Source: Tuwongella immobilis
GTDB lineage: Bacteria > Planctomycetota > Planctomycetia > Gemmatales > Gemmataceae
Length of the DNA stretch: 64,000 bases
NCBI RefSeq assembly: GCF_901538355.1
Contig: NZ_LR593887.1
Coordinates: 1 to 64,000, forward strand
Reading direction: 5' to 3'
Each line of letters opens with the position of its first letter. Position 1 is the stretch's first letter. The position numbers were made by a program, and so were the translations under genes. The notes below the pieces were generated by a model. That model ran no database searches, was not told where the DNA came from, and saw nothing but the letters and a program-made list of their open reading frames with translations. Shown here piece after piece: positions 34,834 to 51,522 of this stretch.

Positions 34834-36108
34834 TTATTCCCAACGGCGAACCACCAACGCAGCACATTGTCCCAGTTCGGTGTACCCCAGCTTCAGCGCG
34901 TAGGGTTTGGAGACGGGGCGCGGGTCGCCGGTATGCACCTGAATCGGGCACGCGGAATCGAGCGAATCGCAATTCAACGTACCGGGCAGTTGCCCATGTT
35001 GGAGCGCGAGCAGACTAACGGCCAATTCCATCAACCCCGAGCCGGCCCCCTGATGCCCAAACATTGGCTTGTAGGAGACAACCGGCACCGATGTCCCAAA
35101 GACATCCGCGATCGCACGAGCTTCCCAAGGATCGTGATCGACCGACCCCTGTGCATGGGCGTTGACGTGGTCCACTTGGTCCGGCGTGATCTGGGCATCT
35201 TGCAACGCTCGGCGAATGACTCGGGCGAGGGTTTTTCCTTCCCGTTTGACATCGCAGCCACCAGCGAAGCCAACAATTTCGCCGTAGATGTTGACACCGC
35301 GCTTCTGAGCGGAATCGAGTGACTCGAAGCCCAGGACCGTGGCCCCTTCGCCCAGAACGGTGCCATCGCGGGCGGCATCGAACGGTCGCAGGGCGCGAGC
35401 CGGTTCGCTGTTATGCCGCGATAATGGTTGGAACAACGTATGACGAACCAGCGACAGCGGGTTCATCTTTGATTCGCAGCCGCCTACCAGCATGAAGTCG
35501 GCCAGATTGCGCTGCAGAATGCGATAGGCTTCCCCGGCGGCAAGCAGGCCCGCGACATCGCTTTCGGTGATACTGTTGTTGGGGCCTTGTGCGTCGTGAA
35601 TGATCGACACATGGCATGCGGGCATGTTTGGTAGATACTTGAGCATCCAAAGCGGGGGAATTTCCTTCAGCCCCACTTCACCCCATTGGGTCATGCTGAC
35701 CATGCCGGGCTGACAATTCATGCTCGATTTGGCAGCGCGAGAAAGATCGGTGAGTTCGGTGGCGATCATACCCGCGCCGAATTCGATTCCGAATCGGAAG
35801 GGGTCGAAGACGCCGGGTTTGTAAGCCGCGTCGTCGAGCATGCGTTGAGCCGCTGCGACTCCGAGCTGTACCGTTCGCGCCATGAGGCGTAAGGAACGCT
35901 GATGCTTTTTGTCCAGAAACTTTTTGGCATCGAAATCGGGCAATTCAGCCGCGATTTGGACGGGCAATCGTGAGGAATCAATCACCGTGAGGTGACGGAT
36001 TCCCGATTGTCCGGCGAGGAGTGCTTGCCAGAAAGAGGCTGGATCGGAGCCGACTGGGCTCAGCACGCCCATGCCAGTGACGACCGTGCGACGGGCTAAT
36101 GCAACCAT
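34834..36108 (-). CDS. Ketosynthase-like protein lacking the catalytic Cys
   Basis: 424 residues of the same thiolase-fold family as its neighbour. When the active-site region GPNNSITESDVAG (175-187) is aligned with FabF, the catalytic Cys is Asp184. The two histidines (His318 in VNAHAQ, His352 in MFGHQG) and Lys347 remain. It therefore cannot form the acyl thioester. The pairing of one active and one Cys-less subunit resembles the KSalpha/chain-length-factor pairs of type II polyketide and aryl polyene systems. Likely roles are a dimer partner setting chain length or a malonyl-ACP decarboxylase. Confidence 0.82.
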   Translation of the reverse strand: MVALARRTVVTGMGVLSPVGSDPASFWQALLAGQSGIRHLTVIDSSRLPVQIAAELPDFDAKKFLDKKHQRSLRLMARTVQLGVAAAQRMLDDAAYKPGVFDPFRFGIEFGAGMIATELTDLSRAAKSSMNCQPGMVSMTQWGEVGLKEIPPLWMLKYLPNMPACHVSIIHDAQGPNNSITESDVAGLLAAGEAYRILQRNLADFMLVGGCESKMNPLSLVRHTLFQPLSRHNSEPARALRPFDAARDGTVLGEGATVLGFESLDSAQKRGVNIYGEIVGFAGGCDVKREGKTLARVIRRALQDAQITPDQVDHVNAHAQGSVDHDPWEARAIADVFGTSVPVVSYKPMFGHQGAGSGLMELAVSLLALQHGQLPGTLNCDSLDSACPIQVHTGDPRPVSKPYALKLGYTELGQCAALVVRRWE

Positions 36109-36188
36109 GAAAACACCTGTGCAACAAGTCTCACGGCCGGGACCGTGGCCCAGGCATCCATGCGGACCAACCCCCGAGACGGCCGGAG

Positions 36189-36674
36189 TCAGGACGAGGG
36201 GTGTGAGCTAACTTTCCGGGCCAAGCCCAGCAAATTTTTCAGCTCACCACTAAACACAAAATTTTGATCCCCGAACAACTGTTGGGAACGGGATTGATCG
36301 AGGTGAGCGAAAAAGATTTCCGCTTCGACAATCAATTCCGAATCCAACCAAATTTTACCGAGTACGGCGGCCCCTTCTTCACGGAGGGTCAGAATCTCGG
36401 CATCGTAGGTCAACAAGCGTCCGGGGAAGACCTCGCGATGAAACTTTGCGGTGGGGACTTTCGCTAGAACGACTTTCTCACGAAAGTCGCGAGCTTCCCC
36501 CACCAGAATGCCGCCAGTTTGTGCCAAGCCTTCGAGCATCAGCGGAGCGGGCATAATCGGGTAGCCCGGAAAATGATCTGCGAACAGATCTTCTGCGTGG
36601 CTGAGTGCCTTGACGGCTCGGGCGGATCGGCCCGACTCAAAGGCCACAAACCGATCAATCCAAATCCAACGCAT
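36189..36674 (-). CDS. Hot-dog fold 3-hydroxyacyl-ACP dehydratase-like protein (FabZ-type), second copy
   Basis: 161 residues starting MRWIWIDRF. The FabZ region HFPGYPIMPAPLMLEGLAQ keeps His34 and Glu48, the catalytic pair, while the usual MPG is MPA. It probably dehydrates 3-hydroxyacyl-ACP. The start at 36674 has CAGGAG upstream; a GTG at 36719 overlapping the ACP stop is the alternative and would add 15 residues. Confidence 0.8.
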   Translation of the reverse strand: MRWIWIDRFVAFESGRSARAVKALSHAEDLFADHFPGYPIMPAPLMLEGLAQTGGILVGEARDFREKVVLAKVPTAKFHREVFPGRLLTYDAEILTLREEGAAVLGKIWLDSELIVEAEIFFAHLDQSRSQQLFGDQNFVFSGELKNLLGLARKVSSHPSS

Positions 36675-36715
36675 GGGTCCCGCTCCTGGTCCTTGCTCGA
36701 TCATGCGAGCCATGC

Positions 36716-37114
36716 TCACACGTTGGCAGATTCCAACTTCGCTTGGACGTATCGCGTAATCAGGTCGACCGTGAACAGATCCGAGATCGCGTCCATCGAC
36801 GGGTTCTTCTCGAATTCGCTCAGATCGGCGAACGGCATGCGGGCTTTCAGTTCCGCCAACCCTTTCGCCGTCACCTTGCCATCGCTGACAAAGTCGGGAT
36901 CGCCCGAGAAGATCGATTCCGGGAACAGTTCCCCACGCGGGATCTTGATGCCGAATTCGCGTTCCAAGCGGAAGACAATATCCAAAAAGTCGATCGATTC
37001 CGCGCCCAGGTCCCCTTGCAGGGTAGCCGTCGGCGTAATCTGATCATCATCCACGTTCAACGCTTCCACCAACGTGGAGGCGACTTTCGCGTAAACTTCA
37101 TCCCGTGTCAGCAT
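36716..37114 (-). CDS. Acyl carrier protein with an extended internal loop
   Basis: 132 residues, against about 80 for standard ACP. The phosphopantetheine site is Ser40 in LGAESIDFLD. Helix I (LVEALNVDDDQI) and helix II (IDFLDIVFRLEREFGIKIP) are normal. An insertion of about 50 residues rich in Asp/Phe/Gly then separates them from the last helix VDLITRYVQAKL. It carries intermediates of the surrounding operon. Confidence 0.88.
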   Translation of the reverse strand: MLTRDEVYAKVASTLVEALNVDDDQITPTATLQGDLGAESIDFLDIVFRLEREFGIKIPRGELFPESIFSGDPDFVSDGKVTAKGLAELKARMPFADLSEFEKNPSMDAISDLFTVDLITRYVQAKLESANV

Positions 37115-37264
37115 CGACCATTCCTCCGGTCAGCCCGGACCGATTGTAGTCGCAGGCACTTTCCCACGCACGACGATCGGAGTCATCCCGGTTCCGAGTT
37201 TCCATCCCGTACCGCACGTTCCGACGATCGAACTATTCCTGACGCTCCGACGCCGTGCTTGAAC

Positions 37265-38026
37265 TTACGGCGTCACGGCACCCAGGCTCAACCCGCCATC
37301 GACCGTTAACACCTGTCCGGTCAAGTATGCACTCGCCGGGCTGGCCAGGAACAACGCGACGGCAGCAATATCTTCCGGCTCACCCAATCGACGCATGGGA
37401 ATGAGCTTTTTGGCGATAAAATCGCCTGCCTTGTTCCGAATCGCTTCGCTCATGTCCGTGGCGATGAACCCCGGAGCAATCGCGTTGACGGTAATCCCGC
37501 GGCTACCCAACTCCACCGCCAGGGATCGCGTCAAGGCGTTGACGGCACCTTTGCTCGCCGCGTAGTTGGTCTGACCCGCGTTCACATGATCCGCAGCCAC
37601 GCTCGAGATGTTGATAATCCGACCCGAGCGCTGCTTCATCATCGGATACGCCACTGCTTTGCAAAACAGGTACGTTCCGTCTAAGTTCGTATGAACGACT
37701 TTGAACCAATCATCCGGTTCCATGCGCACAAACAAGTCGTCGTGGATGATTCCAGCGTTATTCACCAGAATATCAATCCGACCCCAATCCTTGAGCAGTT
37801 GTTCGGCCAACGTATTGGCGAAGGTTGGTTCCTTCACATCGCCCTGACACGCGCGGATCGTCCCGCCGGCGGCGGTGACTTCTTCGACGAGCGCATCGGC
37901 TGCGGCTTGACTGCCCCGATAGACGAACGCCACTTTGGCCCCGGCGGCGGCATATGCTTTCACAATCGCACGGCCAATACCGCGACTTCCGCCGGTTACC
38001 AGTGCCACTTGGTCCTTCAATAGCAT
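37265..38026 (-). CDS. fabG: 3-oxoacyl-ACP reductase (FabG-like SDR)
   Basis: 253-residue short-chain dehydrogenase. The NADP-binding TGGSRGIG is at 11-18, NNAG at 89-92, and the catalytic set Ser142, Tyr155 and Lys159 (NYAASK) is complete. It reduces 3-oxoacyl-ACP. The start at 38026 gives the usual MLLKDQVALVTGG opening. It lies 23 bases after the first hot-dog gene. Confidence 0.92.
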   Translation of the reverse strand: MLLKDQVALVTGGSRGIGRAIVKAYAAAGAKVAFVYRGSQAAADALVEEVTAAGGTIRACQGDVKEPTFANTLAEQLLKDWGRIDILVNNAGIIHDDLFVRMEPDDWFKVVHTNLDGTYLFCKAVAYPMMKQRSGRIINISSVAADHVNAGQTNYAASKGAVNALTRSLAVELGSRGITVNAIAPGFIATDMSEAIRNKAGDFIAKKLIPMRRLGEPEDIAAVALFLASPASAYLTGQVLTVDGGLSLGAVTP

Positions 38027-38049
38027 CGTCTCGAAGCTCCTTCGCCACG

Positions 38050-38559
38050 TCAGCCCGGCGTTAAGGTCCATGATGCCGGGGAGGTTGTCAACACGCCTAG
38101 CCGTTGTTTCCAATGGTCTCGCAAGTGCGAATCCCGTTCCCGCATTTCTTCCGCACGGTCGGGATGTTTCGATTCCAGCGTGTATCCCGCCAGAATCAGT
38201 TGGGCGCTCACGCAGAGTTGCCCTTCGCAGCTTCCTTTGCCTTTGAAGGTGCCCAAGCCACCTTCCAATTTTACCAATTCCGTTTGAAGATCGAGGCAGT
38301 ACCCCGGCTTCATGAAATTTCCATATTTGACGCCTTTGACTTCGCGAAGCACAATCACGGTGGTGGCGTAATTCTCACTCAGTCGCCATAACCACGCAGA
38401 GGCTTCCGTCAGAGCTTCCAGCATCAACACTCCCGGCATCACCGGGAAGCCTGGGAAGTGATCACCCAGGTATTCTTCGCCAAGCGTCAGAAGCTTCTTG
38501 GCGGTTAATTTCTTGCCTGGAGTCCACTCGCTCAATTCGTCGATTAATTGGAATCGCAT
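38050..38559 (-). CDS. Hot-dog fold dehydratase-like protein (FabA/FabZ-type), first gene of the operon
   Basis: 169 residues. HFPGFPVMPGVLMLEAL keeps His34 and Glu48 at the same positions as the second copy (36189-36674). It is the first gene of the operon, about 55 bases downstream of a good promoter. Two dehydratase-like proteins in one operon suggest either two chain-length ranges or a heterodimer. Confidence 0.82.
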   Translation of the reverse strand: MRFQLIDELSEWTPGKKLTAKKLLTLGEEYLGDHFPGFPVMPGVLMLEALTEASAWLWRLSENYATTVIVLREVKGVKYGNFMKPGYCLDLQTELVKLEGGLGTFKGKGSCEGQLCVSAQLILAGYTLESKHPDRAEEMRERDSHLRDHWKQRLGVLTTSPASWTLTPG

Positions 38560-39911: not shown

Positions 39912-42900
39912 ATGGCTCACGTCCGATTTCCTTTGCATCTCTTCTGGGTGCGGCTGCATTCGGGGTGGCTTCGCGCGGAAGCGTTGTTGTTCCCCGAAAT
40001 GGATGTTGTCGGGGCCAATGTCGATCGCACTCACGAACGACTCCGCCGCAAACTTCGCAAGTTGATCCAAGAGACACCCGTAGAAACGTGGTACGCCCGG
40101 CGGGTGATTCGCACCGCCCGCGCGGGGCGAATCACCGTCACGCTCACACCGCCAGCAGGCCAAGAGGCATGGACCGAGCCGTGGCGCATTCGGGTGCCGA
40201 TCGCGCTCTGGAAGCACGACGATGAGACAACCGTGGTGCGGATTCCCAGTGTGCAAGCGTCGCTGATCTTTGTGGGCAAGCGCCCCTCACGTCGCATGAT
40301 CGCCCGCGCCGTTCTGGATGGCTTAGTTCGCTGCCGCTGGCGCGATCGACTCCGCGAAATTGCCTTCCTGCCGTTGCATGCCGCGCCGGAAATCGCCACC
40401 GTGCATTGTCATGTTCCGACGCCCATCGAACTGCGCCGCCGCGAACGCGAAGCCGAGAAAGAGCCGAAGAAGCTCGTTTTGCCCACGGTCACGACATTGT
40501 GGGAACGCGATTCGCTGCAGCCCGCGTTTGGTGTGGATGACACCGTGAAGCATCTTGCCGAGTTGCTGCAAATGCAGCCGGGGCGAAGCATCGTCTTGGT
40601 GGGCGTGAGCGGCGTCGGGAAATCGTCGGTGATCCGCGAGTTCGCCCGCCAACGACATCGCTTCCAATTGGGCCAGTTGCCGATGCGGCAAACCAGCGGT
40701 GCGCGACTGGTGGCGGGGATGACCGGCTTTGGCGAATGGCAAGAACGGGTCACGCAAGTCTGGAAAGAAGCCGCCCAGGAAAAGGCGATTCTCGTTCTGG
40801 GCAATCTGATCGAACTGATGGAGGTCGGCAAAAGCGAGCATCAGCGCGCCGGCATTGGTGGATTTCTGCAACCATCATTTGCCCGCAACGAAGTCGCCAC
40901 CTTCACCGAATGCACCCCCGAAGAATGGGCGATGGTCGAACGATTGTTCCCGGCATTGGCCGCCGTGCTCACACCAGTCGAAGTCGCCGAGCCAACCCCG
41001 GACCAATGCGTTGAGATTCTCGCGGCCGTGGCGGAATCGCAATCCGGCGTCCGCATCGTGTCTCGGCCGTTGTTGCAACGTATCGATTTGCTGCATCGAC
41101 GCTATGCCACCTACTCCGCATTTCCGGGACGCACGATTCGATTTCTGGACCTGCTGCCCCGTCGCAACGAAGCCACGAATGAACCCGCCTGCATCACTGC
41201 CGAGCAGATCGAAGCCGCATTCTCGCGCTTGACAGGGCTACCGCGCGTGCTGCTGCACGATTCCGAGCCGTTGAATTTGCCCGCGACTCGTGAGTGGTTT
41301 ACGCAGCGGGTGATGGGGCAACCGCAGGCCGTCGATTGGATTGTCGGCTTGTTGGGCGTCATCAAAGCGCGGTTGACGCCGAGCGGGCGACCGTTGGCGT
41401 CGCTGTTGTTTGTCGGGCCGACAGGCGTGGGCAAGACCGAACTCGCCAAGGCACTGGCGACATTTCTCTTTGGCTCGCCGGATCGTCTGACCCGCTTCGA
41501 TATGAGCGAATACAACTCGCCGTTGGCCGTGCAGCGACTCATCGGCTTGGGCGACCGCGAAGGCCAACTCACAGCCCGCATCCGCGAGCAACCGTTTTCC
41601 GTCGTGCTGCTGGACGAGTTCGAGAAGGCCGACCCCAGCTTGGATGATTTGCTGCTGCAAATGCTGGGCGAAGCGCGGCTCACCGACCATCGTGGCCGAC
41701 TCGCCGATTTCCGCAATAGCGTGATTATTCTCACCTCGAATCTGGGGGCCGAGAGTTTCCAGCAGGGGGGCTACGGCTTCTCCGGGCAAGCGACGATTTC
41801 CGCCCAGGAGCATTTCGAGGCGGTCGTTCAATCGCATCTCCGCCCGGAATTGGTCAATCGGATGACGCGAATCATTCCGTTTCTGCCGTTGGATCAATCG
41901 GTGATTCGGGACATTGCGCGACGGGAATGGCAGTTGGCCGGGCAGCGCGAAGGCTTCAAACAGCACCGCGTGACGCTGCCAGAATCGGAGCCAATTCTCG
42001 ATCATCTCGCGCAAGTGGGGTTCGATGTCCGCTACGGGGCGCGACCGTTGAAGCGAGCCTTGGAACGCGAATATCTCGTCCCGTTGGCCGATGCGATCAA
42101 TTCGCTGTCGGAGCGGAAATCGCTGCGGCTGCAACTCGATGAATCCGGGCCGATTCCGCGATTTCAGGTGGAAGCGATTCCCGACGAGCCGGAGATTCCC
42201 AAGAGCGCGCAAGAGCAAACCGCACTTCAGCAATGGGAATTGAGCCAAGCCACCCGCATGCAATTGCTGCGATTTCTCCAAGCGGATTCGGTGCGGAATC
42301 GCTTCTTTCAGTGGAATCGATTGCAAGCGCATCGGGCGATTCGTCGCTACGAGCAATTCGGAACCATGCCGCCGGGGGCGATTCTGTCGGAATACTCCCG
42401 ACTCCGCGAATGGGCGGAATCCTGTCAGACCTTGCGGCGTGCGGTTGAGCAATGGGAATTTCAGCTTGCAGAATTGCTCTGGGAACCGAATCCGGTGGTG
42501 AGCGAATCCCAGGTGCATCACGGGCAATCGCTGCGGAATCAATTGCAGCAATTGCAGATGGAGATGGCCAGCCAGTTGAAGCCGGATGCCGATGTCGTCA
42601 CGATTGGCATCTTTCCCGATCACTTGGCGTGGGGCGAATCGCTGCTGGCAGCGCTGCAAGCGGATGCTCAGCAAGGCGGCTACCAGACGAAATGTTGGAA
42701 CTTCTTGCGCCAGGAAATCAAGGGCGGACAGCCACGACGCATCAACGGGGTGCCCGTCCCGGCGAAGTGGGAGTGGGTCCAACCCCCCGATCGAATCGGC
42801 GAAATCTACCGCGATCAGACCACCGGTCGCACCCAGTGGCGGCGGATCTCGACCCGCACCGAATTACCCCCCGCGTTGAAGGCACTGGAACCGATCGGCT

Positions 42901-43241
42901 ACGCGCTGGAAATCCGCGGCCCGTTGGCGTTGCTGCGCTACGAATCCACTCCGGGATTCATCGAATTCGTCGATCATGGAAAACCCCAGTTGCCTCATTT
43001 GGCGCTCATCGTCGCGCAGCGTGGAACCTTTGCATCACTGGTTCCGCCGGATGTCATTCTCAAGCGATTCGATCGAATCGATGCCCCGAAGTTGTTCCGA
43101 ATCCATCTACCCGAAGATAGTGCGACTTGGGGGGGACGCCATTATCGGCTCTCGATTCGCGGCGTCACCTGGCAAGAGATTCTCACCCAGCGGTTCAACT
43201 CCCGATTTGAGCGGGCATTGGACGAGGTGATTCAATCATGA
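39912..43241 (+). CDS. Clp-like double AAA+ protein A, with C-terminal extension
   Basis: 1109 residues. Residues 1-190 form a novel N-terminal region. D1 (about 200-430) has Walker A GVSGVGKSS at 231 but Gly297-Asn298 in place of the Walker B Asp-Glu, and TGFG at 271-274 where Clp D1 has pore loop KYRG. D2 (about 465-750) has Walker A GPTGVGKTE at 502, Walker B LLDEFEKA with Asp568-Glu569, the arginine finger RPELVNR (644-650), and sensor-2 GAR at 709. Between RLIG (542) and the next helix the GYVG pore-loop segment is missing. YGF at 621-623 occupies the place of the ClpP-binding IGF/LGF tripeptide. Residues 770-1109 are a coiled coil plus a region that resembles the PCRF domain of peptide release factors; this resemblance is tentative. 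First gene of a three-gene operon. Confidence 0.85.
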   Translation: MAHVRFPLHLFWVRLHSGWLRAEALLFPEMDVVGANVDRTHERLRRKLRKLIQETPVETWYARRVIRTARAGRITVTLTPPAGQEAWTEPWRIRVPIALWKHDDETTVVRIPSVQASLIFVGKRPSRRMIARAVLDGLVRCRWRDRLREIAFLPLHAAPEIATVHCHVPTPIELRRREREAEKEPKKLVLPTVTTLWERDSLQPAFGVDDTVKHLAELLQMQPGRSIVLVGVSGVGKSSVIREFARQRHRFQLGQLPMRQTSGARLVAGMTGFGEWQERVTQVWKEAAQEKAILVLGNLIELMEVGKSEHQRAGIGGFLQPSFARNEVATFTECTPEEWAMVERLFPALAAVLTPVEVAEPTPDQCVEILAAVAESQSGVRIVSRPLLQRIDLLHRRYATYSAFPGRTIRFLDLLPRRNEATNEPACITAEQIEAAFSRLTGLPRVLLHDSEPLNLPATREWFTQRVMGQPQAVDWIVGLLGVIKARLTPSGRPLASLLFVGPTGVGKTELAKALATFLFGSPDRLTRFDMSEYNSPLAVQRLIGLGDREGQLTARIREQPFSVVLLDEFEKADPSLDDLLLQMLGEARLTDHRGRLADFRNSVIILTSNLGAESFQQGGYGFSGQATISAQEHFEAVVQSHLRPELVNRMTRIIPFLPLDQSVIRDIARREWQLAGQREGFKQHRVTLPESEPILDHLAQVGFDVRYGARPLKRALEREYLVPLADAINSLSERKSLRLQLDESGPIPRFQVEAIPDEPEIPKSAQEQTALQQWELSQATRMQLLRFLQADSVRNRFFQWNRLQAHRAIRRYEQFGTMPPGAILSEYSRLREWAESCQTLRRAVEQWEFQLAELLWEPNPVVSESQVHHGQSLRNQLQQLQMEMASQLKPDADVVTIGIFPDHLAWGESLLAALQADAQQGGYQTKCWNFLRQEIKGGQPRRINGVPVPAKWEWVQPPDRIGEIYRDQTTGRTQWRRISTRTELPPALKALEPIGYALEIRGPLALLRYESTPGFIEFVDHGKPQLPHLALIVAQRGTFASLVPPDVILKRFDRIDAPKLFRIHLPEDSATWGGRHYRLSIRGVTWQEILTQRFNSRFERALDEVIQS

Positions 43242-46200
43242 ATTTGCTGCTGCCCATCTACATCTCGTCGCATCGAGACGGAACGCAGAAGCGTTACCGC
43301 GTTCGACCAGTGTTTCAATCCGATCCCGAAGCGTGGCATGAGCGCATGGATCAGGCGGTGCTGCATTTCCAGAAACGGGTCGAAACCGTGCTGCGATATG
43401 AGGCGGAGAATGATCGCAATGATCCGCTCGCGGCCTGGTCCTTTCGTCCGGAATTGGTCTGGACGCGGGCCAATGTCGAACTCGATCTCCGCAGTCAGAT
43501 CCATCGGTTCCGATTGCCATTTGTGCGATTCACCCATTGGGGCAAAGCGATTGCTGTCTGTCCGGAATTCCCGGATGTCTGGTTCGATTGCCCGAGCGAC
43601 GATCAACTGGTGCCCCGTGCCAATCGAGTACTCACGCAGTGGCTCCGTCGGCAGCAGCAAGAAGCCCGCGAGGCCGACGCTCGGCAGCAGACCTTTCACG
43701 GGTTGCGCATCGAATCGTATCAGCCCCCTGCTTCGTTTCAGGGGAATGAATTGCTGGTGGAAGTGCGGCTCCCGAATCCGAAACGGAATGCAAAATCGCT
43801 GGGCATGCTGCTGGGTGGCGGCGAATCGATGTCTGGCCGGGAGGAATTGGCGCGGGTGGGCGAATCGCTGGATCGGCTCGATCCGGAACGCCGGATGCGC
43901 GCTTACGAACGCGAGGCCGAAGTCGAGCAGCTTCTCGCCTGGATGAATCAACCCAAGCCAATGCCATTGATGCTGGTGGGACCGCGATTGGTCGGGAAGA
44001 CGGCGTTGATTCACGAACTCATCGCGCGACGAAATGCCGGGCAGGATTCGCTTCGCAGTCGTGGCCAGCAGTTCTGGCATGTCTCGCCGGGCCGGTTGAT
44101 TTCCGGCATGAGTTTCGTGGGCCAATGGGAACAGCGCCTGCTGGTGATCCTGAAGCACATGCGGCGAAGTGGGCATGTGCTGGTGTTGGATGATCTGGTC
44201 GGCCTGTTTCGCGCGGGGCAATCGGCGAGTTCGATTCTGCACGTCGCCCAGGTGCTCAAGCCATTTCTGGAACGCCGCGAAATTCGACTGCTCGCCGAGA
44301 TCACTCCCGAAGCCTTGCGCGTGTTGCAAGAACTCGATCGCGGGTTCGCCGATTTGTTCGATCGGCTCCCCGTCCACGAGCCAAACCAAGCGACTGCACG
44401 CCGAATGGTCTACGCCGCCATGAGCGCACTCGAGGGGCAATTCCAGTGTCGATTCCCCTGGCAGGCGATGCCGACGGCATTCTCGATGCACCAATTCTTG
44501 GATCGCAGTTCCGCCCTCCCCGGCGGCGTGGTTCGTATTTTAGAACGCGCAGCGATTCAGTTTCGAGGCATGCAACAGCGGATGCTCGGGCAATCGACAC
44601 AGTCCAGAATCCCAATCGAGCAGCCGTCGTTTCCGTCCAGAATGATCGTATCCGGCATCCGCAGACTTTGTTTCCAGCAGTATCAAATCAGCAACGTCTA
44701 TGATGACCGCACGACGATTCGGAAAGACGATCTCCGCGAACGGATGGTTCAATCGGTGATCGGGCAACCCGAGGCCGTGGATGCCCTGATGGATCTGCTG
44801 TGGCTGATTCGCGCTCGGCTGAACGATCCGAAGCGGCCTGCGGCGTCGGTGCTGATGATGGGGCCAACGGGCGTCGGCAAGACTGAGTGCGCCCGCGCGT
44901 TGGCGACGTTGCTATTTGGCGATCCGCGCCGGATGATTCGATTCGACCTCAACGAATTCGGCGAGCCTGGCAGTGCGGCACGGCTCATTGGCACATTCCA
45001 TCATCCCGAAGGCTTGCTGACCGCCGCGGTGCGCAGTCAACCATTCTCGATCATTCTCTTCGATGAAATCGAGAAGGCGGATCAGGAAGTCGTTGACCTG
45101 CTGCTGCAAGTGCTGGGCGAAGGGCGGCTGACCGATGCGCTGGGGCGGACCGCCGACTTCACCAACACGCTCATTTTGATGACCTCGAATCTGGGAGTCA
45201 CCGAGGCGGAATCTTCCTTCGGGTTTGGCACCAGCGGCAACGCCGATCGTCGGGCGGTTTACCTGCGAGCGGCCCAGCGGGCGTTCCGTCCGGAATTCTT
45301 CAATCGCATCGATCGCATCGTGCCGTTCAACCGACTCACTCGGGAGCATATCCGCCTCATCGCCGATCGACAGGTGAAGCAACTGCTGGAGCGCGAAGGA
45401 TTGCGACAACGGCGGGTGGTCCTGCAGATTCTGCCTGCGGCGATCGAACGCATCGTCGAAATCGGCTTCGAGCCTACCCTTGGCGCGCGTGCTTTGAAGC
45501 GGAGTCTGGAACAGAACCTTGTCACTCCGCTGGCGATTCAAATGGCGGAAGTCACCCTCGATGCGATTTGGCAAATCGACGTGTTGCCCAACCGCCCCAC
45601 AACAAGCGGCCACACTCCAGATCCTCGCCCCGGAATTCGCCTTGGAATCCCCCCTGGAATTCGCGTGGTCGGGCGAATCCTGCCGACGGTGCCAACGGTG
45701 CCAACGGTGCCAGCCGTGTCGTCGGTTCCACCCGGCGAGACCGAGTCCGAGTCCGATCCGGCCATCGTGGCGTTGCCCCAACTGCGGCAGCGCATTCAGG
45801 CCATGCAAAAGCAGATCGATCACTGGCAGCGGCAGCACGGCATCGAAGTGGGCCGAGTCGAAAATCTCCGCTCGCTCTCCCCGCATCAGGAACACACGTT
45901 GCAATTGAAGGAACGCTTGTTGCTGATCCGCGATGCCATGCGGGAGTTGGAGCCGCGATCCAGCTTCGATTCCGAGGATGGGGCGTCGATCTCGATTTCG
46001 CCTTCCGCCGTGACGCGGAGTTTCCGACGCGGGCATCCCCGAGAAAATCGTTTCGGCAACATGACGCCGCCGATGCGGGAATTGCTGTCGCGGGAAGATT
46101 TGACGCTGTTGTTTCGGGAACTCGCCGTCGATGTACCGCCCACGGCGCAACTCCCGATTTTGGCATTGGACCGCCAATTGCGCGTGCTGGAAATCATGGC

Positions 46201-46792
46201 CGATCTGCCAATCGATGATTCGCAATTGGCATCGGAAGTGGTGTTGCTCGTCCGCATCAGTTCCATCATTCCGGAACAACTCCTCAACGGAATTTCGTTC
46301 TTCGATGTCCTCACGCAGATCTTCCATGCCTTCTCGCTGGGAGTGCAAATCGAACATGCCGCCGAAACCGATTCGCTGAATCGATTGACGGCCATTCGGC
46401 TGCTGGGGCTGCATGCCCAGCGCATCGCCGACCTGCTGGAAGGCACGCTGCTGATGGCACCGGAGGGGAATTCGTTCCTGCCGATTTCGTTTGTCCGGCC
46501 ACCCGAGTCAGTCGTCGCCCCGAACCAATCTCTGGCGGAAATCATCGTCGCTGCCCAACGCGCCGATTCCGAATGGGTCACCAACTTGGAATCGGGCCGG
46601 GCATCCGATTCGGTCGAGGTGTTTCCGTTGGGTCCGGTCTGGGGCATTCTCTTGAGCAATCGAAGCTGGTTCGATTTTTCCAGCGGCGGTTCCCACCGCG
46701 GTTTCTCGCTGGAATCGCTCACCTTATCGTGGCTCAATCGCTTGGATGCCCGCCGTCGGGATGCGCAATCCGCACCGGAATCGGGAGAGTAA
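43238..46792 (+). CDS. Clp-like double AAA+ protein B, with C-terminal extension
   Basis: 1184 residues, overlapping gene A by 4 bases. The N-terminal region (1-200) again has no recognised family. D1 has Walker A GPRLVGKTA at 248, Asp318-Asp319 instead of Asp-Glu in Walker B, and SFVG at 292-295. D2 has Walker A GPTGVGKTE at 542, Walker B FDEIEKA with Asp609-Glu610, and arginine finger RPEFFNR at 684-690. The D2 pore-loop segment after RLIG (582) is shortened as in gene A, and FGF is at 661-663. After D2 comes a linker with a triplicated 9-base unit (about 45690-45715, protein VPTVPTVPAV), a coiled coil (LRQRIQAMQKQIDHWQRQ), and a C-terminal domain of about 250 residues that may be PCRF-like. 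Confidence 0.85.
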   Translation: MNLLLPIYISSHRDGTQKRYRVRPVFQSDPEAWHERMDQAVLHFQKRVETVLRYEAENDRNDPLAAWSFRPELVWTRANVELDLRSQIHRFRLPFVRFTHWGKAIAVCPEFPDVWFDCPSDDQLVPRANRVLTQWLRRQQQEAREADARQQTFHGLRIESYQPPASFQGNELLVEVRLPNPKRNAKSLGMLLGGGESMSGREELARVGESLDRLDPERRMRAYEREAEVEQLLAWMNQPKPMPLMLVGPRLVGKTALIHELIARRNAGQDSLRSRGQQFWHVSPGRLISGMSFVGQWEQRLLVILKHMRRSGHVLVLDDLVGLFRAGQSASSILHVAQVLKPFLERREIRLLAEITPEALRVLQELDRGFADLFDRLPVHEPNQATARRMVYAAMSALEGQFQCRFPWQAMPTAFSMHQFLDRSSALPGGVVRILERAAIQFRGMQQRMLGQSTQSRIPIEQPSFPSRMIVSGIRRLCFQQYQISNVYDDRTTIRKDDLRERMVQSVIGQPEAVDALMDLLWLIRARLNDPKRPAASVLMMGPTGVGKTECARALATLLFGDPRRMIRFDLNEFGEPGSAARLIGTFHHPEGLLTAAVRSQPFSIILFDEIEKADQEVVDLLLQVLGEGRLTDALGRTADFTNTLILMTSNLGVTEAESSFGFGTSGNADRRAVYLRAAQRAFRPEFFNRIDRIVPFNRLTREHIRLIADRQVKQLLEREGLRQRRVVLQILPAAIERIVEIGFEPTLGARALKRSLEQNLVTPLAIQMAEVTLDAIWQIDVLPNRPTTSGHTPDPRPGIRLGIPPGIRVVGRILPTVPTVPTVPAVSSVPPGETESESDPAIVALPQLRQRIQAMQKQIDHWQRQHGIEVGRVENLRSLSPHQEHTLQLKERLLLIRDAMRELEPRSSFDSEDGASISISPSAVTRSFRRGHPRENRFGNMTPPMRELLSREDLTLLFRELAVDVPPTAQLPILALDRQLRVLEIMADLPIDDSQLASEVVLLVRISSIIPEQLLNGISFFDVLTQIFHAFSLGVQIEHAAETDSLNRLTAIRLLGLHAQRIADLLEGTLLMAPEGNSFLPISFVRPPESVVAPNQSLAEIIVAAQRADSEWVTNLESGRASDSVEVFPLGPVWGILLSNRSWFDFSSGGSHRGFSLESLTLSWLNRLDARRRDAQSAPESGE

Positions 46793-46796
46793 CCCC

Positions 46797-49106
46797 ATGC
46801 CAACCTACCGATTCGATGCCGTGCAATGGGCCTCTCAAACGGGCGGCATCTTCGTGCGTCTGGTCGATCCGGGCATCTTCGATGGTGTCGGTTTCGGCGT
46901 GACCGCTCGCGATGCCCTGGCCGATCTGCGCGACCGACTCGAACATGCCTACGAATACGATCAGCCGATTGTCACGCCGCTCACCAACCTGAAGCGCGTG
47001 CGCATGAAAGTTGCCGTGCGCGCATCGTATGTGGTCGGCAACCGCGTCATCCCCGTTCAGGAACCGATTCCACTTCGCGTTGATGTCATTCAAGCGGATT
47101 TGGACGCGGATCGCATTCATGGCTTCCTGCCAATTCTGGGGCGAGTCTTCCAGATGGAACGCACGGAGACGTTGCGCTCGGTGGTAGAGCGGGTCGTGGC
47201 TCAGGCATTGGAACGCTGCGATCCGGCGATGATTGCCAACGCGCTGCCGCCCGCCGAGATGCAATTGATTCCCTTCCCCGTGCGGATTCGGGAAGGCTCG
47301 CCACGCCGACGATTCCGATTCGATGAACTCGCCACCGTGCGCTCGGTTGCGGATGCGCTCACCGATCCGGCCAATCGCAAGCAGATCCCACGGGCGTTGG
47401 GGAGTCCCACCTTTCATCAGGATTTGGCCGCCGATCTGGTGAAAACCTCCAACAATTTCGTGATTGTCGGGGCCGCCGGCCAAGGCAAAACCACGCAGTT
47501 GCTCGAAGCGATTGGGTACACACAATCCCCGCAATTCCTGGCGAGCGTGGATCAATCCCCGGAATTGATTCCGGCTGTTGATCCCAATGCGCCGAAGCTG
47601 TGCCGATACTGGCGGACCTCTGCCGGGCGATTGATCGCCGGGATGAAATATCTCGGGCAATGGGAAGCGCGGGTCGAAACGATCATCGCCGAACTCGGCA
47701 GCGTGAGTGGTATCCTGATCGTCGATCGGCTGCTCGATTTGCTGATGACCGGCGGTGCCGACGAAACCGATTCGCTCGCGGCGTTTCTGCTCCCGTATCT
47801 GCAACGGGGCGAACTGCGGATGATCTGCGAGGCAACCCCCGCGGAGCTGGATGCGTGCCGACGGTTGATGCCCGGCTTCATCGATGCGTTTGTCGAGCGG
47901 TCAGTTCCGGAATTTAACAAGTCCGAAGCAATGGAGATTCTCCGCAAGATTCTCACGCCGCCGCCCGGAAATACCACCCTGCAGATTGCCCCGGAGTTGT
48001 CGGATCAGTTATTCCAACTGGTGCAACGATTCGAGCCGGATTCGGTCTTCCCCGGCGCTGCCGTCCGGCTCGCCCGCGATCTGCTCAAAGGCGCGGTGCG
48101 GAGTCGGGCCAGTTCCCTGGACGGCGATGACCTCATCCGCTTCTACCGCGAACGAACCGGCCTGCCCGATCGCTTCCTGCGCATCGATTTACCCGTCACT
48201 CGCCAGTCGCTGCTGAGCGAATTTCGGGCATCCGTCATCGATCAAGAACCTGCCATCGAAGCCGCCGCGGACCTGGTGATGCGCTTCAAGGCGTCGCTCA
48301 ATGATCGCCAACGACCAATCGCCGTCATGCTCTTCTGCGGACCCACCGGCGTGGGCAAGACCGAACTCGCCCAAACACTCGCGCGATGTTTCTTCGGACA
48401 CTCCGAACGCAACCGCCACGATCCCGGCCTGATCCGACTCGATATGAGCGAGTACACCCAATTCGGTTCCGCCAGCCGACTGCTGGGAATCGATGGCGGC
48501 GAACCCAGCCTGCTCATCCGCAAAGTCCGGCAACGTGCGTTCCGCGTCATCCTCCTCGATGAATTCGAGAAGGCGTCCCCCGACCTCTTCGATGCCCTTA
48601 TGACCCTGTTCGACGAAGGTCGACTCACCGACCGCTATGGCCGCGAAACCAGCTTCCGTTCCACCGTGATTCTGCTCACCTCGAACCTCGGTGCCGGCAG
48701 CGGACCCAGCCTCGGCTTCGCCACCGGGACCGGCGGCCCCGATTATGTCGCTGCCGTCCGCAAAGCCTTCCGCCCCGAATTCTTCAACCGGCTCGATGCC
48801 ATCGTCCCATTCGCGCCACTCTCGCCGATCACCGTTCGTCGCATCGCCGAGAAAGAACTCGCTGCCATCGCCACCCGCGAAGGCATCCGCGATCGTCACC
48901 TCACCCTCCATTGGCACCCCGCCATCATCGATCGACTCACCCAAATCGGCTTCGACCTCCGATTCGGCGCCCGACCCATGCAACGCGCCATCGAACGCGA
49001 AATCGTCACCCCACTCGCCAACTTCCTCCTCACCCTCCCCACTCTCCATCACGCCCACCTCACCGCCACCCTCTCCCCCCACTCCCAAGTCGTGTTCACC
49101 CTGTGA
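46797..49106 (+). CDS. Clp-like double AAA+ protein C
   Basis: 769 residues, starting 4 bases after gene B with GGGAGAG upstream. The N-terminal region (1-190) begins with a beta-rich segment MPTYRFDAVQWASQTGGIFV. D1 has Walker A GAAGQGKTT at 225, Asp310-Arg311 in Walker B (Glu lost), and the most Clp-like pore loop, KYLG, at 284-287. D2 has Walker A GPTGVGKTE at 515, Walker B LLDEFEKA with Asp588-Glu589, arginine finger RPEFFNR at 659-665, and the same missing GYVG segment after RLLG (561). LGF at 639-641 is identical to the ClpP-binding tripeptide of some ClpC proteins. There is no C-terminal extension beyond the D2 small domain. The last 80 codons are strongly C-ending. Confidence 0.86.
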   Translation: MPTYRFDAVQWASQTGGIFVRLVDPGIFDGVGFGVTARDALADLRDRLEHAYEYDQPIVTPLTNLKRVRMKVAVRASYVVGNRVIPVQEPIPLRVDVIQADLDADRIHGFLPILGRVFQMERTETLRSVVERVVAQALERCDPAMIANALPPAEMQLIPFPVRIREGSPRRRFRFDELATVRSVADALTDPANRKQIPRALGSPTFHQDLAADLVKTSNNFVIVGAAGQGKTTQLLEAIGYTQSPQFLASVDQSPELIPAVDPNAPKLCRYWRTSAGRLIAGMKYLGQWEARVETIIAELGSVSGILIVDRLLDLLMTGGADETDSLAAFLLPYLQRGELRMICEATPAELDACRRLMPGFIDAFVERSVPEFNKSEAMEILRKILTPPPGNTTLQIAPELSDQLFQLVQRFEPDSVFPGAAVRLARDLLKGAVRSRASSLDGDDLIRFYRERTGLPDRFLRIDLPVTRQSLLSEFRASVIDQEPAIEAAADLVMRFKASLNDRQRPIAVMLFCGPTGVGKTELAQTLARCFFGHSERNRHDPGLIRLDMSEYTQFGSASRLLGIDGGEPSLLIRKVRQRAFRVILLDEFEKASPDLFDALMTLFDEGRLTDRYGRETSFRSTVILLTSNLGAGSGPSLGFATGTGGPDYVAAVRKAFRPEFFNRLDAIVPFAPLSPITVRRIAEKELAAIATREGIRDRHLTLHWHPAIIDRLTQIGFDLRFGARPMQRAIEREIVTPLANFLLTLPTLHHAHLTATLSPHSQVVFTL

Positions 49107-49785: not shown

Positions 49786-51522
49786 TCAGGCCGGGATGCG
49801 GAGGGATTGCAGGATGGCGGGGAGGGGGAGGGTATTGAAGACATTTTGGGGGGTGAGCCAGCCACGGCGGGCGACGTTGACGCCGTAGCGGAAGAGGGCG
49901 AGTTCGTCGGTGGAGTGGGCATCGGGGTTGATGACGAGTGGGATGCCGAGGGCTTTGGCGCGTTTGACATAGATCCAATCGAGATCGAGCCGGGAGGGTT
50001 GTGCATTGATTTCGATCATTTTGCGATGCTCGGCAGCGGTTTGCAGGACTTCGTCGAGATTGACTTTGTAGCCATCGCGGCGGAGCAGGAGTCGGCCGGT
50101 GGCGTGGCCGAGCATGGTGGTGGCGGGATGTCGGAGGGCTTTGCAGATGCGGGCGGTTTGCTCCTCGATGGGCAGATCGAAGTAGGTATGCACGCTGATG
50201 ACGACGTAATCCAACTCGGCAAGCAGGTCGTCATCGTAGTCGAGATCGCCATTTTTGAGGATGTCGCATTCGATGCCTTTGAGGATACGGAAGCCATCGA
50301 GTTGCTGATTGAGTCGGTCGATTTCGGCGATTTGGTGTCGGACGCGCTCGGGACTGAGTCCACGGGCGACGGTGAGCGATTGGGAGTGATCGCCGATGCC
50401 GAGGTACTCGAAGCCAAGGGCTTTGGCGGCGAGTGCCATTTCTTCGAGAGTGTTGACGCCGTCGCTGTAGGTGGTGTGGTTGTGGAAGACGCCGCGGATG
50501 TCGCTGGCTTCGACGAGTTTGGGCAATGCGTGTTGGGTGGCGGCTTCAATTTCGCCGGTATCTTCGCGGAGTTCGGGCGCGATCCAATCCAGTCCCAGGG
50601 CGGCGTACAGATCCGCTTCGGTCTCGCAGGCGACGCGGGAATTCGGGCCGGCGAGTTCGTATTCGTTCAGCTTCCAACCGCGATCGGTGGCCAATTGGCG
50701 CAGGCGGATGTTGTGTTCTTTGCTGCCGGTGAAGTGGACCAAGGCGGAGGCGAACTGATCGGGCTTCACCACGCGCAGGTCGGCTCCGAGGGTGATTCGG
50801 TGCCCATGCGTGACCCACTCGGCAACGATGCTGGATTTGGTTTCACCTTGGCCGACGATGTGGCGAACTTCCGGCAGCGTGCAGAATGCCTGCATGATTG
50901 GCGCGGAATCTTCGGCGGCAACCAGCAAGTCGATGTCTTTGCTGGTCTCGCGACGGCGGCGGAGGCTTCCGCATAGCTCGGCACGCAGCACACCGGGCAG
51001 CGCGCGAATCCGCTCCAGGAGCATCAGCCCGAGTGGCAACGATTGATCGATCCGCACCCGCTCTCCCACGGATTCGATGAAGGTCAGCCCGTCCAAAATC
51101 TTCTGCTGCGTCTTCTCGCCGAATCCCTTCAATCCCGCGACTTTCCCACCGATGCAGGCGACGCGAAGTGTTTCCAGCGAGTCGATGCCCAAGCTGGTGT
51201 TGAGGGCACGCACCTTCTTTGGCCCAAGTCCGGGGATGCGGAGCATGGCGATGAGGCCAGGCGGAGTGACGGCACGCAGTTCTTCCAGCACGTCGGCGGT
51301 GCCGGTCTTGGCGAGTGAGAGGATGACTTCGCGAAGGGTTTCGCCGATGCCGCGGACCTTGGCGAGTTTGCCGGTAGCGATGAGCGTATCGAAATCGCCT
51401 TCGAGTTGCTCGATGGTTCGGGCCGCGCCGTGATAGGCTTTGGTGCGAAAGGCATCGTCGCCGCGGAGTTCCATCAGCGTGCCGATGAGTTCCAGATGTG
51501 CTGCGACTTCCTCTTTGGTCAT
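49786..51522 (-). CDS. polX: PolX family DNA polymerase with PHP domain
   Basis: 578 residues. The N-terminal 8-kDa-like and helix-hairpin-helix regions (1-150) include IPGLGPKKVRALN. The nucleotidyltransferase core has GSLRRRRETSKDIDLLVAA with the metal-binding Asp pair. The PHP phosphoesterase domain begins at FHNHTTYSDG and continues with GIGDHSQS and the late NAQPSRLDLDW and INPDAHSTD. This is the standard bacterial PolX layout: gap-filling synthesis in base excision repair plus a 3'-exonuclease/phosphatase activity in the PHP part. The last third of the gene has C-ending codons, as do other genes beside the repeat element. Confidence 0.93.
   Translation of the reverse strand: MTKEEVAAHLELIGTLMELRGDDAFRTKAYHGAARTIEQLEGDFDTLIATGKLAKVRGIGETLREVILSLAKTGTADVLEELRAVTPPGLIAMLRIPGLGPKKVRALNTSLGIDSLETLRVACIGGKVAGLKGFGEKTQQKILDGLTFIESVGERVRIDQSLPLGLMLLERIRALPGVLRAELCGSLRRRRETSKDIDLLVAAEDSAPIMQAFCTLPEVRHIVGQGETKSSIVAEWVTHGHRITLGADLRVVKPDQFASALVHFTGSKEHNIRLRQLATDRGWKLNEYELAGPNSRVACETEADLYAALGLDWIAPELREDTGEIEAATQHALPKLVEASDIRGVFHNHTTYSDGVNTLEEMALAAKALGFEYLGIGDHSQSLTVARGLSPERVRHQIAEIDRLNQQLDGFRILKGIECDILKNGDLDYDDDLLAELDYVVISVHTYFDLPIEEQTARICKALRHPATTMLGHATGRLLLRRDGYKVNLDEVLQTAAEHRKMIEINAQPSRLDLDWIYVKRAKALGIPLVINPDAHSTDELALFRYGVNVARRGWLTPQNVFNTLPLPAILQSLRIPA

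Follow-up and report, generated by a model that had tools for sequence, protein, structure and literature searches.

Three Clp-type AAA+ paralogues of Tuwongella immobilis without a D1 Walker B glutamate or a canonical D2 pore loop

To our knowledge, the D2 ring that hydrolyses ATP in Hsp100 motors generally also bears the loops that grip the substrate. We describe here three genes of Tuwongella immobilis, named A, B and C, in whose products hydrolysis and grip are seemingly split between the two rings, a pattern kept over several phyla in three co-retained paralogues. Each product comprises two AAA+ domains of Hsp100 type. The genes lie in the first 64 kb of the 6.69 Mb single-contig genome (contig NZ_LR593887.1; 'the window' hereafter means this whole stretch of 64,000 nucleotides). 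For ClpB, the available part of PMC6546751 describes substrate-gripping loops in D2, and the trio offers a direct test of whether force in D2 needs D2 loops.

Among known systems, ClpC and ClpA resemble the trio in having two AAA+ domains, D2 catalysis, the tripeptide of the ClpP loop and no long ClpB-type middle domain. They differ in that the trio lacks the D1 glutamate, the D1 arginine pair, GYVG and the [KR]H of the D2' loop, has another N-domain, consists of three co-retained paralogues and carries, in A and B, a release-factor-like C-terminal domain. ClpB and Hsp104 share the D1-D2 order, and ClpB is the best-scoring NCBIfam family for all three proteins. However, the scores (300, 308 and 260 bits for A, B and C) are far under the TIGR03346 cut-off of 1232 bits, the middle domain is missing, D1 is probably inactive and the D2 loops are lost. 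The D1 and D2 Walker A motifs are 269, 292 and 288 amino acids apart in A, B and C, versus 401 and 402 in two ClpB-like references. The cut-offs of ClpA (TIGR02639; 264, 285 and 245 versus 993 bits) and ClpV (TIGR03345; 227, 240 and 187 versus 885 bits) are not reached either; for the latter, genes of the type VI secretion system were not searched for. As regards the traits of Hsp100/Clp class I, the tandem AAA+ domains with D2-small are present, whereas D1 hhDE and D2 GYVG are absent.

Cdc48/p97 offers in part a precedent for hydrolysis in a ring that lacks canonical aromatic loops, as its D1 hydrolyses ATP. However, the loop-less ring there is D1, and D2 both hydrolyses and grips, whereas the putative gripping ring of the trio has lost its catalytic glutamate. 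NSF has N-terminal arms, unrelated to those of the trio, and its pore loops hold the substrate. The available parts of the sources place the canonical aromatic loops of eukaryotic Cdc48 in D2 only (PMC7226402) and an inactive D1 beside an active D2 in Pex1/Pex6 (PMC5762779); NSF, on which the latter source also touches, is a model for remodelling by moved attached domains rather than by threading. Pex1/Pex6 resembles the trio in being a heteromeric double ring whose D1 is inactive and whose D2 hydrolyses ATP, the complex of the trio being predicted from sequence. However, the Pex D2 has working pore loops and threads, whereas the D2 loops of the trio are lost.

Catalytic motifs and pore loops of the two rings

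Motif counts refer to orthologues from the order Gemmatales, from other parts of the phylum and from named genomes (after merging of identical rows, 59 for A, 67 for B and 49 for C), and a row enters a count only where the column is present. Repeats of earlier records (loci L111-L122, L124, L127, L134-L136 and L146-L148) and one second copy (L157) were left out; L051, from genome G026, is absent from the B and C counts, L138 is in broken pieces, and L108, with two proteins scoring about equally for A, B and C, was entered as A and C. The canonical controls are 20 Clp of the Gemmatales, 17 ClpB-like and three ClpC-like, chosen by hand from search matches (one of them from G060 contig 50).

The catalytic set of D2 is complete. 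Each of the three proteins has Walker A (GPTGVGKT), the DE of Walker B, the arginine finger (RPExxNR) and the GAR of sensor 2, as a preliminary description of the window had stated, and the catalytic residues are invariant wherever the column is present (Walker B glutamate in 57/57 A, 66/66 B and 46/46 C rows). The GYVG segment, which that description held to be deleted, is indeed missing. When A is aligned to ClpB of Thermus thermophilus (1qvr), the gap falls on this segment, and none of 170 rows has a GYVG-like motif in D2 (A 0/57, B 0/67, C 0/46). The deletion amounts to about five residues: the loop segment is 30 residues long in 46 of 57 A rows, all 67 B rows and 39 of 46 C rows (29-31 in the others, 38 in one), and 35 in three in-house references.

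The D2' loop has lost its [KR]H motif as well (A 0/57, B 0/67 and C 0/45 rows, versus 20/20 canonical proteins). In ClpB, residues E639, K640 and H641 of this loop contact the substrate, according to the available part of PMC6546751. With both GYVG and [KR]H gone, D2 looks able to hydrolyse ATP and unable to hold a chain in the manner of ClpB. All 20 controls have the D1 DE, the D1 arginine pair and GYVG or GYIG. Homologues of the trio that keep D1 DE and GYVG, named at the outset as what would speak against the motif losses, were not found in the orthologue rows.

In D1, the Walker A lysine is kept (A 57/57, B 67/67 and C 48/49 rows), and the Walker B glutamate is found in none of 174 rows (A 0/58, B 0/67, C 0/49). 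The readings first given for this motif, LGN in A, LDD in B and VDR in C, are in frame and occur once per protein, and so do the D2 loop segments quoted alongside them (Table 1). The residue pair standing in place of DE is mostly Gly with Asn, Ser or Pro after it in A; mostly Asp-Asp in B, with Asp in the glutamate position in 63 of 67 rows; and Glu or Asp with Asn, Arg or Ser after it in C. None of the three conserves the RR arginine-finger pair of ClpB D1. Because the catalytic glutamate is absent throughout and the RR pair is not conserved, D1 hydrolysis is probably lost, in agreement with the original proposal; in B, the change from Glu to Asp is conservative and weak D1 activity may remain.

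The aromatic residue of D1 pore loop 1 is present in 54/57 A (F/Y), 61/67 B and 49/49 C rows, and a Trp follows it by three or four residues in 173/173 rows. In most B and C rows the loop is an aromatic-hydrophobic pair (SYV, KYL), a type that ClpB uses in D2 (available part of PMC6546751). D1 looks able to bind ATP and to grip, and unable to hydrolyse. The preliminary description had predicted that substrate would not be threaded through D2 in the usual way. The D2 contacts are lost as it supposed, but threading as such would be possible via the D1 loops that are kept. Its claims did not extend to the retention of D1 pore loop 1, the loss of the D2' loop or the presence of C-terminal domains.

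A tripeptide after D2 sensor 1, at what we take to be the ClpP-docking loop of ClpC, is found under a permissive pattern in 55/57 A, 66/66 B and 45/46 C rows, and its position agrees with three ClpC-type controls.

The three genes are all on the + strand and overlap or nearly touch (Table 1). The ATG of B overlaps with the stop of A (ATGA), and C likely starts at 46797 (MPTYRFD), four bases past the stop of B, since many orthologues start at MPTxRY. Pfam AAA_2 and ClpB_D2-small exceed their cut-offs in all three proteins; protein A matches the Pfam D2 and D2-small domains, its D1 aligns with ClpB NBD1, and the orthologue profile aligns with it from its first residues onward. The N-domains are mutually related in profile comparisons (A-B 1.9e-10, A-C 5.4e-11, B-C 1.4e-5). 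A Pfam search with nine A, B and C N-domains gave nothing worth noting, and the profile of the C N-domain found weak matches among solved structures (TTHA1756 at 0.041, antitoxin HicB at 0.21). AlphaFold2 models of A (mean predicted local distance difference test score 82.7, predicted template modelling score 0.56) and C (86.0 and 0.70) matched Clp proteins across D1-D2 in a structure search.

Table 1. Coordinates in the window of the A, B and C genes, their motifs and their C-terminal domains
Feature	Coordinates	Strand	Remark
Gene A	39912..43241	+	1109 aa; longest open reading frame; N-domain, D1, D2, C-terminal release-factor-like domain
A D1 Walker A GVSGVGKS	40602..40625	+	intact
A D1 pore loop 1 TGFGEW	40722..40739	+	aromatic present
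A D1 Walker B LGNL	40797..40808	+	both acids gone
A D2 Walker A	41415..41438	+	GPTGVGKT
A D2 pore-loop segment RLIGLGDREGQL	41535..41570	+	GYVG deleted
A D2 Walker B LLDE	41607..41618	+	intact
A YGF(S), place of ClpC ClpP-docking loop	41772..41783	+	by alignment
A C-terminal domain	42111..43238	+	likely degenerate class I release factor (RF2-like), no GGQ domain; by profiles
Gene B	43238..46792	+	1184 aa; domain layout as in A
B D1 Walker A GPRLVGKT	43979..44002	+	intact
B D1 pore loop 1 SFVGQW	44111..44128	+	aromatic-hydrophobic pair
B D1 Walker B LDDL	44186..44197	+	Glu to Asp
B D2 Walker A	44861..44884	+	GPTGVGKT
B D2 pore-loop segment RLIGTFHHPEGLL	44981..45019	+	GYVG deleted
B D2 Walker B LFDE	45056..45067	+	intact
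B FGF(G), place of ClpP-docking loop	45218..45229	+	by alignment
B C-terminal domain	45557..46789	+	likely degenerate class I release factor (RF2-like); by profiles
Gene C	46746..49106	+	786 aa as open reading frame; no C-terminal extension
C D1 Walker A GAAGQGKT	47469..47492	+	intact
C D1 pore loop 1 KYLGQW	47646..47663	+	aromatic-hydrophobic pair
C D1 Walker B VDRL	47721..47732	+	Glu to Arg
C D2 Walker A	48339..48362	+	GPTGVGKT
C D2 pore-loop segment RLLGIDGGEPSLL	48477..48515	+	GYVG deleted
C D2 Walker B LLDE	48552..48563	+	intact
C LGF(A), place of ClpP-docking loop	48711..48722	+	by alignment

Shared ancestry and C-terminal domains

A further family, X, is encoded by a lone gene in 7 of 102 Gemmatales genomes (loci L052, L053, L054, L055, L056, L062 and L064; HEAT repeats, tested in L052), and its D1 lacks the glutamate and its D2 lacks GYVG. 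In a D2 tree of 80 sequences (18 A, 17 B, 17 C, 7 X and 21 canonical; the A, B and C members being the window proteins and a random sample), A, B and C form one clade with an ultrafast bootstrap support (UFboot) of 97, A and B group at 98, and a clade of A, B, C and X stands apart from canonical Clp at 95; group A alone has a support of only 22. Since A, B and C form one clade and X has the same D1/D2 pattern, the motif losses were most likely inherited once, before the duplications, and not acquired in three parallel events. The earlier argument, that the same changes in three diverged proteins speak for selection, is thus not supported; the argument for selection is that the pattern has been retained across phyla.

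A median of 378 residues follows D2 in A and 351 in B, versus 21 in C (orthologue rows). Profile comparison relates the C-terminal domain of A to that of B (6.5e-8), and both to that of X (A 1.7e-8, B 5.8e-9), in which the likeness to release factors is clearer. Pfam PCRF matches the X domain above cut-off in the four proteins tested (3.4e-14 to 7e-8), and hhalign against 19 release factors gives 97.5 percent for X and under 1 percent for the N-domains. A combined A+B+X profile reaches RF2 at 9.1e-18 along its length, save for an unmatched stretch at the place of domain 3. The influence of X was excluded with profiles made from A only and B only. With the former, 24 of the 25 chains listed are release factors, but the matches are weak, the best being RF1 at 0.0021 over a short stretch; the latter finds RF2 best, at 1e-7, with 8 of 12 listed chains being release factors and the best other chain at 0.054. 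Among 10,072 in-house frames, the A profile places a release factor at 8.3e-7 versus 0.38 for the best unrelated frame, and the B profile at 0.0016 versus 0.068 (one L108 frame, part of a trio-like gene, was not classed as unrelated).

The relationship of the X domain to RF2 is well supported, and that of the A and B domains, without the catalytic domain, is likely; as the direct matches of A and B to release factors are weak, their link to RF2 leans on X. The domains of A, B and X match most of the length of RF2, but they differ from it in three respects. The GGQ domain is absent from A and B, where the region is unmatched, and GGQ is replaced in X; the stop-codon recognition loop is changed or shortened, as judged by eye on the alignment; and the whole is fused to a Clp motor. 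The available part of PMC8012679 names SPF as the stop-codon tripeptide. The T. immobilis genome encodes two PCRF proteins, RF1 and RF2 as expected.

That a Clp motor is joined to a release-factor-derived domain in A, in B and also in X, a separate family, suggests a connection of protein remodelling with bacterial translation. Listings of the open-licence literature, outside which most subscription papers and bioRxiv preprints fall, show neither such a trio nor a Clp-release-factor fusion; the available parts of PMC6514570 and PMC7159879 contain no such fusion. The A/B/C protein-remodelling motor is apparently undescribed so far.

Distribution and gene order

Of the 102 Gemmatales genomes, 22 carry A (at 558 bits or more), and exactly these also carry B. 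C is present in 20 of them and as a fragment in G034; no C turned up in G020, where the contig breaks off at B. Co-retention extends to genes lying apart. A lies away from B in 5 of the 22 genomes despite room on the contig (G016, G019, G023, G028 and G088), and C away from B in 6 others (G017, G044, G053, G054, G060 and G094). In G023, A is carried by a 2.3 Mb contig and B-C by one of 4.9 Mb. Contig ends leave one junction unjudged in each of G092 and G026. A, B and C behave as a unit; this co-occurrence, the motifs and the shared ancestry can be read directly from sequence.

In G026 (L051, 1-3676), a single stop-free open frame of 1225 aa spans the last part of B and the first part of C; either a natural fusion or an assembly error could account for it (this genome is 68 percent complete). 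Fragments of A without B or C at the scores used were seen on G013 contig 128 and G018 contig 501; that of G013 misses most of D1 between two matching pieces and is possibly a relic.

Elsewhere in the phylum, the order A-B-C is found at 14 of 20 loci (15 counting a cut piece), and in the scan of named genomes at 19 of 49 (25 counting cut or broken pieces), part of the 49 repeating Gemmatales records already counted. This order occurs in records of Planctomycetota, Acidobacteriota and Verrucomicrobiota. By record title, the 49 loci are 35 planctomycete, 9 Acidobacteria or subgroups, 2 Verrucomicrobia and 3 other, mostly metagenome-assembled. The nine with Acidobacteria titles include Acanthopleuribacter pedis twice (L156 and L157), whose two trio loci have identical gene lengths and perhaps stem from a recent duplication. 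Divergent members of the trio were seen elsewhere in the phylum at L103, L104, L105 and L108, and the L108 proteins may lie near its base.

Neighbour clustering revealed no conserved partner gene: the first set of loci gave ordinary scattered gene families, and in the second the clusters mainly reflected synteny shared by small numbers of related loci, at most 7 of 45.

A candidate mechanism and its alternatives

What could a D2 ring without holding loops act upon? We tentatively favour, at somewhat less than even chances, an obligate A/B/C complex in which the D2 motor, instead of threading a chain, moves the release-factor-like arms, with ribosomes as a possible site of action. A, B and C would be subunits of one two-ring AAA+ machine of Hsp100/Clp descent. 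D1 would hold ATP unhydrolysed and serve as the assembly and gripping ring, with its aromatic pore loops, and D2 would be the motor. With both ClpB-type chain-holding loops gone, the D2 stroke would no longer act on a chain in the D2 pore. Its force would most likely go to the arms located C-terminal of D2 in A and B, and a partner would be levered apart rather than drawn through the pore. We infer the single heteromeric complex, the static D1 and the lever mechanism from these features, and only weakly the ribosome as partner. The apparent origin of the arms from an RF2 that has lost its catalytic domain would make the ribosome or a termination complex the most likely partner.

A more specific version, in which the loop-less D2 works without threading and drives RF2-derived arms lodged in or near the A site of ribosomes or termination complexes while a frozen D1 holds, is doubtful as it stands; D1 would then hold the complex or a bound chain. 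Vms1, a protein separate from Cdc48, belongs to an unrelated superfamily of release factors (aeRF1 type). Cdc48 and Vms1, linked according to the available part of PMC6514570, resemble the trio as an AAA+ motor associated with a release-factor-like protein, by analogy only. By convergence, a ribosome-acting trio could conceivably, though we would not count it probable, be the bacterial counterpart of Cdc48 with its release-factor-like proteins.

Several observations weigh against arms driven by D2. An arm is lacking in C. With neither the stop-codon loop nor GGQ left, the arms cannot work as release factors, and they may no longer touch ribosomes. Pfam PCRF is absent from the six A or B C-terminal domains tested; the A-only profile gives the coiled-coil protein PspA at 0.0031, just behind RF1; and hhalign is weak for A (39 percent; 89.5 with a larger profile) and B (23; 37). 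No release factor appears among the 50 best structure matches, a search that barely covered the C-terminal domain. The two neighbour clusterings found no conserved translation gene adjoining the trio; L125, L128 and L130 have B with no A or C nearby, and L131 has a piece of C upstream of B. The D1 pore loops that are kept make an indirect, D2-driven threading possible, and the kept tripeptide suggests a ClpP-like partner instead.

The last two points lead to the main rival explanation, a ClpC-like unfoldase in which D1 loops thread the chain, moved by D2 through a rigid D1-D2 coupling, and feed ClpP1P2. We consider it possible, at rather low probability. It is supported by the aromatic D1 loops, with pairs in B and C resembling the ClpB D2 type, by the G-F-like tripeptide at the ClpP-loop position in nearly all rows, and by ClpAP and ClpCP entries among the structures that the A model matches best. 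ClpP is present in 98 of 102 Gemmatales genomes and in 71 of 71 good ones. However, there are about two ClpP per genome with or without the trio, and none specific to the trio was seen in these counts. Both D2 substrate loops are gone, and the large domains of A and B directly follow D2, where ClpP would presumably dock.

Alternatively, the trio could form a nucleotide-regulated scaffold or a storage or hibernation assembly, with D2 hydrolysis doing no more than timing assembly and disassembly and the arms keeping ribosomes or release factors inactive. The loss of the D2 gripping loops together with the active parts of the release factor fits such a role, and record titles point to environmental lineages, which are mostly slow-growing. 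However, this hypothesis leaves no reason for the kept D1 pore loops, and the D2 catalytic set is complete; we regard it as unlikely.

A role of the trio in conflict or defence, in bacteria that are multicellular or form colonies, is improbable. The patchy spread (22 of 102 genomes in the order) and PADLOC matches to DolB and PDC-M37B, down to 2.3e-25, are consistent with it, but the matches sit on the D2 AAA part, common to canonical Clp, and no conserved neighbours accompany the trio. In two sets of matching plasmid or phage records, none (0/38 and 0/45) covers 80 percent of the B probe, and the best 10 of the 38 and the best 10 of the 45 are short, partial and mostly annotated as Clp or unannotated. 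Decaying paralogues without function, suggested by the lost catalytic residues and loops and by the lone A fragments of G013 and G018, are scarcely credible and are contradicted by the long open frames, by D2 catalysis and the D1 Trp being invariant across phyla, and by the co-retention of genes lying apart.

In the window itself, further genes were noted on the minus strand. Upstream of the trio, at 34834-38559, genes resemble by eye fatty-acid-synthesis enzymes (ketosynthase, dehydratase and reductase), and a frame at 49786-51522 resembles, also by eye, a PolX-type polymerase with a PHP domain.

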